Positions 16,299 through 42,500 of a DNA stretch of 64,000 nucleotides are shown here, in pieces. The translations under genes were made by a program, and so were the position numbers. The stretch's first letter is position 1; every line of letters starts with the position of its first letter. The notes under the pieces are model-generated. The model saw only the letters and a list, made by a program, of their open reading frames with translations. It was not told where the DNA came from and did not search any database. This DNA is from Apostichopus japonicus. Its lineage: Eukaryota > Echinodermata > Holothuroidea > Aspidochirotida > Stichopodidae. The stretch spans positions 26,195,265 to 26,259,264 of the forward strand of contig NC_092573.1 in assembly GCF_037975245.1 (NCBI RefSeq). Direction: 5' to 3'.

Positions 16299-18806
16299 AG
16301 GGCCAAAGCCAAAAATGGTCATCACTATACCTGGAATTTGAACATTGCCACTTAGGCTCATTTCACCCATGGTTATGAGAACAACTAACCAAAGTTCTGT
16401 AATCATTAAAAAAAATTACGATAATTCGCATAACTGTGGAATGCGGTCATTCCAAAATGCAGGTAGCACGATCCTAATGTGGTGGGACGGAATTTTAGAA
16501 AAATGAGGTAATTACATATGGGAACAAAGTTGAAGTTTTCTGTTTTTGACGTTATAAATGGCTATTAATTAGGATACTTTATGCACTATAAAATGTATCA
16601 ATAGTAGTTCTTGAACGAAGAAAAAAATAAAACGAACGTGTTCAATTCCGTCCCACCACATTTTTGAACATATTTTTTTATTTTCCAAGGGGGAAAAAAA
16701 TGATAATTTTTTTTAAACTCTCCAAACTATCAACTATGTATGCAACTGACACCTCTGAGTGGAGAAAATATAAATATTTCATTCTGGATAGACAGGGGGG
16801 TAGTCCAACATTTTCGTGGTGGGACGGAAACAAGTTGTGGTGGGACAGAATTTTAAATGAAGGGCATCTTCAAACAGCATGTCTGGTCCAAAATTTTCCT
16901 CTGTCACTCAAGATTACAAATTTATATTCAGACTCCTTGAACACCCGACCTAATAACAATGTGATCAATTGATTATACTTCAAAATGTTACGTATCTGGA
17001 TATTCCATACATACTGTACACATCACATCAGTTTTGAACCTGATGTGTCAAAACAACACATTTTCTGGAAAATTGAGATTGGGTTTTTTATCATGCATAA
17101 AAAATCCCATCACTATAGAAATAGTCCTAGTTGTTCACCCCAGGTTTCTTTTTTGGCCCTCTTGGAGTCTTGGCTTTCCTAAACTATCCATTCTAAAACA
17201 TGTGCTTTTGAATTGATATCATCTGCTGATGAGCAATAATCCATGTGCACAAGAAAAGTCAAGTTGTTATGGTACTCATGACGTGAATCATACAAGATAG
17301 AAGAGCTAGATTGCAAGAATTAAGGTAAGAATTCATTCTGCTTCTCAATAGTAATAAATTAGTTTACCTCCAGTTTATTGTTATAGGCAATTCAGACAAT
17401 TTGGTAGTGATAATTATGATTTAGCCTAAGCTGTTGCCTAACAGACTATGTTATACAGTAAAGGTTTAAAACAAAACTTATACTATACTGAGAGGTAGAA
17501 ATGTGTAGCCTCCAGTACTAATGCAAGGAAGCAAACCTGTTAGATGAAATATTACACATTTTGCATGAGTTGTCTAGCCTAGCAAATTTATGTTTTAGCC
17601 TAAGCTGTTGCCTAACACGATATGGGATGATGCCTAAGCTGTTGCCGTCTAACATACTACTGTAAGTTGGATTTTGAAACTTGTAGCCTACGATGCAGAA
17701 AAGTGAACCAAAACACCATGTAGGCTAGTTGAAATATATTGTGCAGGAAGTGTATACTGTCTATGCCTGTTATTCAGCCTGTTCGTAACTGCACATTATG
17801 AGGCCAATCTCATGACATATTGCATTTGTAATACACAATTCACAGGATGGTGAAGCCATCTTATTCTTTCTTTCTATTCACATGTTGGCATATGGGGAAA
17901 GACCACGATTGCTTCCTGGTTCCCCAACTTCTTAATAATTAAGCCAGAGATGTGTGTGGCTATATCCCCCACCCCAGCCCCCTTTTCATGCATCCCGCTG
18001 GTAAGAATGTCCTTTTATCTCTCTTTGCAAAACAGATCAATATGGAAAATCCTGAGCCTCAAAATGTGTCTGCTAGCAGATACATACTTATAGGAAGAAA
18101 AAGAAGGAGAGAACGGGTGCTGAGGCATTTCGAGAATGGGAGCGGAGTAGGAAGAAAAGGCAAAGGGCCAACCAGAAGGCAAATAATCCAGCAGCGTACA
18201 AAGCATCCATAACAAATGTTCGAAATAACTTCCCGACTGAATTAGTCCAAGATATCATCGAGCATATTAAAAAATCATTTCACTCCAGCATAAATTTCAT
18301 TGTTGCTTATGAACTTCTTGTGAGAGAAAACATAATTGTTTAATGTTTTTGTACCTAATCAACAGCCTTTACATTGGAAAAAAATTCCGTCCCACCACAT
18401 TCCGTCCCACCACATTGACACACTTTCGGTAAAATTAACACAATTCTTATGCGTGAAGTATAATTTCTGCCATTGTTTCCTTAATGGTAGAAGAATAGTT
18501 CACCTCCATTTCAGTGTTAATAATTACTATTATATTGTACTACTTTTGATAATAATTACATAAAGGTTACATGTTCATGATTTCATGAGATTTATCATTC
18601 CGTCCCACCACGTCAATATATTTGTGTTACCATGGCAACATCTTCAAATTTGTGTCTGTTTTTTTTTGTGTCTGGTTGCAGTCTGTGACTGACCTGTTTG
18701 TGTGGATATCCTGATTCCTTCATATATGCTACATATAAAGTGGTATTATTTAAATGGTCTATCAAATTCCGTCCCACCACAATACGGTAATTTTGGCTTT
18801 GGCCCT
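16299..18806. mobile_element. DNA transposon E1 with 16-bp inverted termini and eight subterminal motifs
   Basis: The element is 2508 bp. It starts AGGGCCAAAGCCAAAA and ends with the exact reverse complement. It interrupts the ccatacacttag array; the flanks ccatac and acacttag share a 2-bp AC, consistent with a 2-bp target duplication. Eight copies of GTGGTGGGACGGAAT or its complement lie at 16479(+), 16645(-), 16816(+), 16837(+, one mismatch), 18384(-), 18399(-), 18596(-) and 18766(-). They are plausible transposase-binding sites. There is a broken basic coding remnant near the right end but no intact transposase, so it is probably non-autonomous. The superfamily is not assigned: a 2-bp target duplication that is not TA argues against Tc1/mariner. 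Confidence 0.85.
18042..18343 (+). pseudogene. Broken coding remnant inside transposon E1
   Basis: A frame opens at ATG 18042 (MENPEPQNVSAS). It becomes very basic (GRKRRRERV) and then loses sense. From 18122 a second frame continues with EAFREWERSRKKRQRANQKA and runs 74 codons to TAA at 18341-18343, ending RENIIV. The two halves read as one basic, probably DNA-binding segment split by a frameshift, or as two exons. An acceptor-like ctctctttgcaaaacag lies just upstream. It may be the tail of an element-encoded protein; I cannot assign a family. Confidence 0.35.
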
Positions 18807-18808
18807 AC

Positions 18809-39500: not shown

Positions 39501-42500
39501 GCCCTATACATATTACAGATGCTATATCCATTTATAGACGCTATACATATTACAGATGCTGTAACTGCATATTACAGATGTTATAACTACATACTACTGA
39601 TGCTACATTAACTGTATTAGTGTGCCATTTTGTTTTGTAATAGCTATATAAGCTACACATGGTAGATGTTATTACTTTATTACAATAACTATTATAACAC
39701 TTTAATTGATAAATGGCAGATGTTACATTAAAGTTGCTATTATTTACATTATAGTGGATGTAACTATATTTTACGGATACAATTAGTGCAATTACCTCGT
39801 TAACTTTATACTTGCTTGAACTATGTATTACAGATGCTAATACTGCATAACGTTGCTAATATTGAATCCTCAAAAATGCATATTTTTTGATTGTACCCAT
39901 TACGATACCTTTACAATTTTGCACTGCTGAACTTTTCTCATAATTCTTTGTCTATGAAGAGAGATCTACTGTTGACCTTTATAACAGTAATGGCACTCTA
40001 TCCCATGGTCCCAAATCAGTCTTGTAGGATGAGTATGAGATCACAAGACAACAACAAAAAGTTGGTAAAAGATGATGTGGTGAAGAGTCAAAGACGGTTA
40101 AATTATCTCACATTTTCACAGGTTGTCTACCAGGGTGCTGTAAGTTCATTCCAGAACAGTGTATCCCCATCCTTCACGGTTAGAGACCGCGAACAGAGAA
40201 AAATAAAACATATCAGGAGCAAAAAGAAAGCTCCACTTTCCAAACAAATGACTGTGGAAAAGCTACTTCGTGTTTATGTTTATCTCAAAATTGAGATGTA
40301 ACAATTTTAGAACTCCTTCCCCAATAATCTAGAGGAATGTTTCAAATCAGCAGAAAACTAAAAAGGACAGAGAAGATGCAAGGCTGCCAAGCTCTGATAC
40401 CAAACAAATACACAACAAGCCACTAGCCGTATAGTAATAATAACATTCACAATCGAATACCAATGTCTAGCAAAGAAGAATAAATAGAACAATGTTCTTC
40501 TCAAGGTGAAACACTTGACAGTTCCTGTCCATCTTGAGGTGACATTTTTACCTAATTGTATAGAATCTGAATGGAAGCTAACTCATTAATTTAACATTCA
40601 ACTACACCTGAGGTGACAATTTTTACCCAATTGTATAGAATCTGAACGGAAGACTACTCAGAAACAATAGCATCATTTTGCCTCACTTTGTACATCATTA
40701 GAACAATAGCCATAACTAGTAGTTACTTGAGTAACCTCTCTCTCTTGATGCAAATATGGTAATGAAAGCAAACAGTAAGTTATAAATAGAAAACAACTCT
40801 TGTTTAAGATAGGTCCACACACCGCAAGTTATTTGTAATATGCAAACATTGAATCGATACTGTTACTGTGCTCTTCTAGCATGTCCACCTCCATAGAGAT
40901 TTGTGCATGCAAAACCCATCTTAACACAAACCAATTCACAACTTAGGCATGTTTTACTAACATGCACTTCTATTTTTCAATTAGAATTTAGAGACTAAAA
41001 TCAAGTCTCATTACATAATTTCCACACTTTCTTTCATGATATGCTGCTCCCCCATTACAGTAGGCTGGTAAGGTCTTGTGACAAAGTATGTGACTATTGT
41101 CTTAGTAACATGTAGACTTCAAACAATAAGTATTTCAAATTTCAATGAGGCTCTTTTTGCCACCTAATGGATATGTTTGTATTAACAACCAGGGCTCCTG
41201 CACATCATGACAGAGGAATAGCTAGGACAAAAAAAAAAACATTTATCGATTCAATGTCTCTGTTAATGAGACACAAAAGGTGTGCTAACCTGTCCCTCAG
41301 TTGGCCATCACTTGGGCGCCTCTCATGGGCCCTGTCTTGGTTGAATGAGCCCCCTGGCCCGAGGGAGGCAAACCTCAGACTGTGGAGGCAAAGTGTCATA
41401 AATAGCTTTACAAACACAATGGAACAAGCAGACATCTAACAATATTCAAGCACACTAAACATGTTTCACTGACGACAAGGGTATTAGTTCTAAGTTAGCC
41501 CTTCATATTCATTGAACAGTTCATCCTGATGTATCTGACCATTAGTTCTAGATTAGCCCTACATACTTATTGAACAGTTCATCCTGATGTATCTGACCAT
41601 TAGTTCTAGGTAAGCCCTACATACTCATTGAACAGTTCATCCTGATGTATCTGACCATTAGTTCTAGGTTAGCCCTACATACTTATTGAACAGTTCATCC
41701 TGGGGTATCTGACCATTAGTTCTAGGTTAGCCCTACATACTTATTGAACAGTTCATCCTTATGTATCTGACCATTAGTTCTAGGTTAGCCCTACATACGT
41801 ATTGAACAGTTCATCCTTATGTATCTGACCATTAGTTCTAGGTTAGCCCTACATACGCATTGAACAGTTCATCCTGATGTATCTGACCATTAGTTCTAGG
41901 TAAGCCCTACATACTTATTGAACAGTTCATCCTGATGTATCTGACCATTAGTTCTAGGTCAGCCCTACATACGTATTGAACAGTTCATCCTGATGTATCT
42001 GACCATTAGTTCTAGGTAAGCCCTACATACTTATTGAACAGTTCATCCTGATGTATCTGACCATTAGTTCTAGGTTAGCCCTACATACTTATTGAACAGT
42101 TCATCCTGATGTATCTGACCATTAGTTCTAGGTCAGCCCTACATACGTATTGAACAGTTCATCACTGATGTATTGGACCATTAGTTCTAGGTCAGCCCTA
42201 CATACTTATTGAACAGTTCATCACTGATGTATTGGACCATTAGTTCTAGGTTAGCCCTACATACTTATTGAACAGTTCATCCTGATGTATCTGACCATTA
42301 GTTCTAGGTTAGCCCTACATACGTATTGAACAGTTCATCCTGATGTATCTGACCATTAGTTCTAGGTAAGCCCTACATACTTATTGAACAGTTCATCCTG
42401 ATGTATCTGACCATTAGTTCTAGGTTAGCCCTACATACTTATTGAACAGTTCAGCCTGATGTATCTGACCATTAGTTCTACGTTAGCCCTACATACTTAT

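Follow-up and report, generated by a model that had tools for sequence, protein, structure and literature searches.

The window, the whole 64-kb stretch of DNA that was analysed, contains two elements bounded by inverted repeats, E1 and E2, each with eight copies of its own family-specific 14-15-mer. Six of the E1 copies are exact and two carry one mismatch, and the E2 copies are all exact (8/8). All 16 sites lie where an earlier note on this DNA had placed them, and neither motif occurs at any further place in the rest of the 64-kb window at up to 3 mismatches. The features of E1 are as follows.

16300..18805, plus strand: E1, non-autonomous element, 2506 bp, end A at left
16296..16299, unstranded: left 4-bp target-site duplication TACA (length class from genome copies)
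18806..18809, unstranded: right target-site duplication TACA
16300..16314, plus strand: left terminal inverted repeat GGGCCAAAGCCAAAA
18791..18805, minus strand: right terminal inverted repeat
16479..16493, plus strand: site A1 GTGGTGGGACGGAAT
16645..16659, minus strand: site A2
16816..16830, plus strand: site A3, 1 mismatch
16837..16851, plus strand: site A4, 1 mismatch
18092..18340, plus strand: remnant reading frame, 83 aa
18384..18398, minus strand: site B4
18399..18413, minus strand: site B3
18597..18611, minus strand: site B2
18766..18780, minus strand: site B1

E2 lies in the opposite orientation.

36566..39504, minus strand: E2, non-autonomous element, 2939 bp, end B at left
36562..36565, unstranded: left target-site duplication TATA
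39505..39508, unstranded: right target-site duplication TATA
36566..36583, plus strand: left terminal inverted repeat GGGCAGGTCCAAGCTATT
39487..39504, minus strand: right terminal inverted repeat
36590..36603, plus strand: site B1 GTGACGTACGGGAC
36760..36773, plus strand: site B2
36955..36968, plus strand: site B3
36971..36984, plus strand: site B4
38959..38972, minus strand: site A4
38978..38991, minus strand: site A3
39147..39160, plus strand: site A2
39312..39325, minus strand: site A1

The earlier note gave the terminus as AGGGC. This has to be corrected, because alignment of E1 copies places the leading A inside the 4-bp target duplication, as host DNA; the termini are GGGC..GCCC. Counted from the first G of GGGC, the end A sites fall at 179F, 345R, 516F and 537F in E1 and at 179F, 344R, 513F and 532F in E2. 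At end B, where all sites of both elements point inward, the distances from the other terminus are 25, 194, 392 and 407 in E1 and 24, 194, 389 and 405 in E2. Positions and orientations therefore superimpose as had been claimed, with a largest offset difference of 5 bp, and agreement by chance is indeed very improbable (∼2e-13 under a random-placement model). The DNA between the sites is another matter: the E1 and E2 intervals align near shuffle level (z 2.6 and 1.5, against 2.3 and 1.4 for mismatched-end controls), although the inter-site spacings of the two elements differ by only 1-3 bp. Leftover shared sequence was rejected as an account of the likeness, with a best blastn E value of 0.04 and interval alignments near shuffle level. 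A scan of 309,547 bases for further spacings like those of end B gave, outside tandem arrays, only one short word in locus L045.

The N terminus of the 83-aa remnant in E1 weakly matches (E 0.038) the N-terminal basic region of a transposase profile. Against 120 proteins of that family, phmmer gave no match for the remnant and blastp a best E value of 0.035 over 23 residues; a padded protein search returned no relatives, and no Pfam family was found.

Exact sites number 164 in the genome for the E1 motif and 765 for the E2 motif, with 1 match for each control. All eight sites are retained in 17 of 20 fetched E1 copies; the exceptions are L038 and L041, with 4 sites each, and L044, with 6. For E2, the first 100 of the 765 listed sites belong to 16 elements; 90 of them fall within 2 bp of a grid position, and all eight sites are exact in 6 of the 16 elements. 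The earlier note had held that variable number, position or orientation of the sites would count against its proposal. Within E1 and E2 such variation is confined to decay and small indels, but end A is arranged differently in more distant families. Of the 18 E1 copies fetched with both ends, all but L036, L051 and L053 (15 copies) are flanked by exact 4-bp target duplications of non-fixed sequence. These duplications are mostly AT-rich, but not always: CCCT, AGCA and CCAA occur too.

One further locus, L067, is of E1 type, with the same termini, the same grid and alignable intervals (z 3.5 to 10.2). These z-scores alone discriminate, since gapped interval identity is uninformative (0.79 overall for E1/L067 against 0.72-0.84 for E1/E2). 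In the position of GTGGT in the E1 motif, L067 has GCGA at 7 of 8 sites and GAGA at one, so the motifs of these sister families differ coherently across eight sites. Tandem site pairs genome-wide (n = 59) comprise 21 with GTGGT, 38 with GCGA and 0 mixed; other mixed or broken pairs would escape this count because the search pattern needs two intact right halves.

Fragments of one and the same DDD transposase family are present in both the E2-family copy L059 and the E1-type L067. This family occurs across animals, and the transposase that some relatives encode is roughly 660-690 aa long; at L060 its reading frame is uninterrupted in the sequence. The transposase has an RNase H-like core with three invariant acidic residues, and the elements have terminal inverted repeats and a target duplication of fixed length, all characteristic of DD(D/E) cut-and-paste transposons. 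The predicted structure of the core appears integrase-like. Foldseek alone placed a viral terminase nuclease, Argonautes and RNase H chains at the top, with one match at E below 0.001; the VIA-align list for the predicted core includes integrases, IstA, Mos1 and Metnase, and the absence of other transposases from that list means little. Five family proteins scanned against Pfam gave no family above cut-off, and no THAP domain at E up to 1. Mean pairwise identity is 0.33 in the N-terminal basic region versus 0.52 in the catalytic core; among the other non-catalytic stretches, three are as low as the N-terminal region (0.27-0.35) and three stand at 0.41-0.46. A low-complexity-filtered tblastn search with the 120 family proteins found nothing at E 0.05 in the window and the first fetched loci.

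Nine loci were chosen by transposase matches alone, and seven of them carry family-specific subterminal sites. In L064 and L065, from a longer clade, neither a grid nor GGGC repeats were found in the fetched flanks. Six motif families are now seen in the genome, and the end B layout is common to all six (E1, E2 and four others). End A occurs in two layouts: L060, L061 and L062 share end B, but their end A differs in layout and orientations, with the first site near 362 rather than 179. The full eight-position grid is thus not universal in the lineage. Families have about eight sites, four per end in an asymmetric layout, although L060 has ten, of which the first end B site carries 3 mismatches. 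The longer site spacings are 156-198 bp; this and the other layout ranges were set from the same families that they describe. Target duplications are ATTT in L060, ATAT in L061, AAAT in L062 and ATAT in both L066 and L067, with an imperfect TTCA/TCCA in L059.

We favor, with a probability of roughly 0.77 for the whole, an explanation in which a single lineage carries putative binding sites fixed by geometry, and the motif changes together with its reader. On this view E1 and E2 belong, as non-autonomous elements, to a single lineage of cut-and-paste DNA transposons that end in GGGC..GCCC and duplicate 4 bp of target. The transposase, or its part outside the catalytic core, would bind the subterminal sites, and the bound sites would pair both ends in a complex whose geometry sets the site positions. 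The base sequence of the sites would be free to change if sites and reader change together, and non-autonomous copies would be mobilized by whichever transposase reads their family word. The single lineage proposed in the earlier note gains support from the transposase family common to L059 and L067. Its constrained positions are upheld by the E1/E2 spacings, kept within 1-3 bp despite near-shuffle intervals, and by the end B layout in four other families. Its changed recognition sequence stands as a change of motif, given six motifs and a sister pair differing coherently across eight sites.

Host factors acting in transcription, repression or chromatin might instead bind the sites, with the grid kept for expression or silencing and not for end pairing. 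The longer spacings do resemble the nucleosome repeat length, and E1 and E2 retain their sites though they are non-coding or nearly so. However, six motifs in one genome and a coherent change over eight sites would better fit a reader encoded by the element than a shared host factor, and we consider this explanation unlikely.

Less probable still is that the grid reflects common descent only, with position unconstrained, the motifs having come to differ through copying among the sites of one element (gene conversion or template switching). A new half-site could spread by conversion, and the E1/L067 intervals still align, so that this pair shares its positions by descent. The E1/E2 intervals, in contrast, cannot be aligned above controls, yet their spacings are nearly unchanged; neutral intervals with so much divergence should have gained and lost more bases. 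Among E1 copies, moreover, the sites vary less than their flanks. Chance agreement between two unrelated elements, for which we found no favorable points, is negligible given the probability calculated above, and recurrence of end B in four further families refutes it.

The genome examined here holds six motif families, a largely kept layout, linked transposase genes and two sister families whose motifs differ in one part across all eight places. This makes it testable how an enzyme that binds DNA shifts its specificity in step with the many copies of its site: which protein residues track the motif, whether the families are indifferent to one another and whether spacing by itself is essential. 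Pairs of transposase and site that work orthogonally could also serve as laboratory tools. A bolder reading, which we regard as doubtful, is that each site is a series of 4-5 bp words, as in GTGAC-TTAC-GTGAC, GTAAC-GTGA-GTAAC, GTGAC-GTAC-GGGAC and GTGGT/GCGA-GGGAC-GGAAT, recognized by a transposase whose DNA-binding part is modular, and that families switch one word at a time, at all eight sites together, on a frame set by the transposition complex. Such switches might let transposase-bearing elements escape enzyme-titrating non-autonomous copies, so that one genome would house a lineage made up of mutually orthogonal transposon systems.

In CACTA (En/Spm) elements, TnpA binds a subterminal motif that varies from family to family. 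These elements are described as having CACTA termini, a 3-bp target duplication, short terminal repeats and, next to them, several hundred bases in which repeats occur in direct and inverted orientation (PMC8978399). The short terminal repeats and repeat-bearing subterminal regions are alike; the GGGC ends, the 4-bp duplication and the near-fixed grid of roughly four sites at each end, common to families with different motifs, are not. Each end of Tn7 and phage Mu holds several transposase sites, whose fixed and asymmetric arrangement assembles a paired-end complex. They work alike in having several sites per end, but are bacterial, with other sites and partners, and we know of no family-to-family motif switch on a kept grid in such ends. 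In the portion of the literature covered by our search, a shared site grid with changing motif was not found described, and nothing was found on ISL2EU subterminal repeats or on the E2 motif string.

Families with 2-bp duplications, such as ISL2EU, were considered and rejected, as the duplication here is 4 bp. The P element and Galileo reportedly also have multiple sites near their ends, those of Galileo being read by a THAP domain; their target duplication is about 8 bp, unlike the 4 bp found here. Retroviral integrases and Mos1 would share only the predicted fold, with 7-10% sequence identity in those alignments. IS481EU has TNT..AYA termini (PMC10045372), in contrast to GGGC..GCCC here. For Sola2 elements of two amoebozoa, target duplications of 4 bp that are AT-rich are reported, together with inverted repeats only 12-21 bp long (PMC3627910). 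The lineage described here likewise has a mostly AT-rich 4-bp duplication, and Sola2, judged from its described duplication and repeats alone, is a possible existing name for it.

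E1 (window 16300..18805, plus strand, 2506 bp) and E2 (36566..39504, minus strand, 2939 bp) are non-autonomous elements with a common layout of eight sites, four at each end, occupied by a different 14–15-mer word in each. This part of the earlier note stands: a direct scan recovered all 16 sites in place, and outside the two elements no position of the 64-kb window lies within three mismatches of either word. Counted from the first G of the GGGC terminus, with F and R denoting site orientation, the E1 sites fall at 179F, 345R, 516F, and 537F (end A) and at 25, 194, 392, and 407 (end B), and those of E2 at 179F, 344R, 513F, and 532F and at 24, 194, 389, and 405, a maximum discrepancy of 5 bp. 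With four sites placed randomly per end, the analytic chance of this agreement, strands included, is ∼2e-13; in simulation, 13 of 3,000,000 random throws matched the positions of one end. Alignment of the site-masked ends gave z scores of 2.6 and 1.5, compared with 2.3 and 1.4 for mismatched-end controls, and interval-by-interval alignment gave −0.8 to 2.7. Because the offsets agree while masked ends and intervals remain near control level, E1 and E2 share the layout and the surrounding DNA has no recognizable kinship.

Exact-word searches of the 671.6-Mb assembly (window in contig 13) returned 164 matches for the E1 word and 765 for the E2 word, with one match for each control. All eight sites are kept in 17 of 20 fetched E1 copies, the others retaining four (L038 and L041) or six (L044). 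Small indels do occur, as one interval is shifted by 12 bp in L039 and by 8 bp in L044. The sites are conserved within the family: among 19 aligned copies (the window copy and 18 fetched ones; two one-ended copies excluded), 0.4% of site columns are variable, compared with 2.2% of other end-A and 1.2% of other end-B columns (permutation p 0.007). Exact 4-bp target duplications of many different sequences flank 15 of the 18 fetched two-ended copies (all except L036, L051, and L053), which places the start of the element at GGGC and assigns the leading A of the AGGGC terminus previously described to the host. For E2, the first 100 of the 765 sites group into 16 elements; 90 of these 100 are no more than 2 bp off their grid positions, and six of the 16 elements have all eight exact sites. 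Identity is 97–100% for the best 40 of the 131 E2 end-B candidates, which are therefore young copies. The interior of E2 contains a 256-bp unit in five tandem copies (window 37222–38481), and in other E2 copies the span between end sites varies and the ends remain on the grid.

E1 retains a remnant reading frame of 83 aa with 26 genome matches, 21 of them with internal stops. These represent 24 places including the window; 20 of the 23 others were fetched, and all 20 have E1 sites. The remnant had no Pfam match and no relatives in a padded protein search, so a transposase family, which we take to be common and unnamed in invertebrates, was tried as a probe. It matched 491 proteins, the best 120 of which include sequences from Asterias, Holothuria, Antedon, Lottia, Rhopilema, a stick insect, and fishes. 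Some relatives (P0004, P0014, P0062, P0068, P0136, P0141, P0142, P0143, and P0167) carry an additional PF02338 (OTU) or PF02902 (Ulp1-type peptidase) domain. One family protein, P0044, gave 69 matches in the sea cucumber genome (65 of 270 candidates scored), including two adjacent ones ∼0.4–1.1 kb from an E2 site. This locus, L059, is an E2-family element: both of its ends have the exact E2 inverted repeat, seven sites are present with at most one mismatch each, the target duplication is imperfect (TTCA/TCCA), and fragments of the transposase core are detected (E 3e-36).

Ten loci were fetched from the 69 matches: L059, picked for its nearby E2 site, and nine for which the transposase match, an open frame, or the copy number was the criterion. 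Family sites are present in seven of these nine, linking the site-bearing elements to the DDD transposase. L061, L062, L066, and L067 each have a family-specific word in the 4+4 layout, and L060 has ten sites, eight with the exact core word and two weaker. Each of these five elements is bounded by GGGC inverted repeats and flanked by an exact 4-bp duplication. L063 is a rearranged L060-family copy with one recognizable end, and L068 an L067-type copy with one end intact. The fetched flanks of L064 (C5:10579800) and L065 (C17:22213000), which belong to a longer transposase clade with open frames of 866 and 818 aa, contain no sites and no GGGC repeats. As a 15-mer, the L060 word has 165 exact genome matches, compared with 2 in controls.

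Family words.
E1: GTGGTGGGACGGAAT
L067 type: GCGAGGGACGGAAT
E2: GTGACGTACGGGAC
L060: GTGACGGACGTACA
L061 and L066: GTAACGTGAGTAACC
L062: GTGACTTACGTGAC

All six families share end B, with sites at 12–26, 182–194, 371–392, and 392–407 from the terminus, the first being weak in L060. As a descriptive figure, the ranges having been set from the same six families, 22 of 400,000 random ends fall inside them. End A has two layouts: ∼179–205, 344–372, 513–537, and 532–556 in E1, L067, and E2, and ∼362, 518–528, 538–544, and 564–566 in L060, L061, and L062, where orientations differ among the three and L060 has an additional site at 551. The full eight-position agreement proposed earlier is thus a feature of E1, L067, and E2 and does not extend to the whole lineage. 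The longer inter-site spacings are 156–198 bp, close to the nucleosome repeat length.

The inverted repeats of L067 match those of E1 at 14 of 14 positions at both ends, its intervals can be aligned with E1 (blastn E as low as 3e-7; z scores per interval, 3.5–10.2), and it contains transposase sequence (E 3e-37). The change of word between them is coherent: GTGGT of E1 is replaced by GCGA at seven of eight L067 sites and by GAGA at the eighth, and the right half that follows, GGGACGGAAT, is exact in six of the eight. A genome-wide tandem-pair pattern requiring this right half found 59 pairs, 21 with GTGGT, 38 with GCGA, and none mixed. By our grouping the 38 GCGA pairs represent 23 elements, ten of which (C4 twice, C7, C8, C11, C14, C16, C17, C19, and C20) lie at P0044 matches, compared with 0 of 21 GTGGT pairs, with 65 of 270 candidates scored. 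This pair is the clearest sign of a word changing as a set with the frame kept. Judging from the six words, they may be built of 4–5 bp pieces, one of which the sister pair would have changed.

The best reading of the grid is a paired-end one, in which the transposase would bind about four sites at each end and pair the two ends in a fixed asymmetric frame; the geometry of pairing would fix the positions, and the word could change as a set, probably with coevolution of its reader. In Tn7 and Mu, the transposase pairs the ends through several sites in a fixed asymmetric frame, and pairing in the GGGC lineage may be analogous. The GGGC lineage also resembles CACTA elements, of which subterminal direct and inverted repeats are a known feature (PMC8978399), and Sola2, for which 4-bp AT-rich duplications are reported (PMC3627910); it may belong to Sola2 or to another named group. 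Within the portions of the open-licence literature consulted, we found no published shared site grid with a changing word.

Minisatellite arrays contain or directly adjoin E1, E2, and one further E2 copy (L057), which may reflect either target preference or array growth at the element; the association was noted at these three elements:
Window 15860–16299 and 18806–19661, arrays by E1
Window 36413–36565 and 39544–39605, arrays by E2
L057 from ∼2375, array by the E2 copy
Apart from the arrays, the window contains chromodomain and SNF2 helicase matches on the minus strand at 60091–62385, consistent with a CHD-type gene, inside which E2 probably lies.
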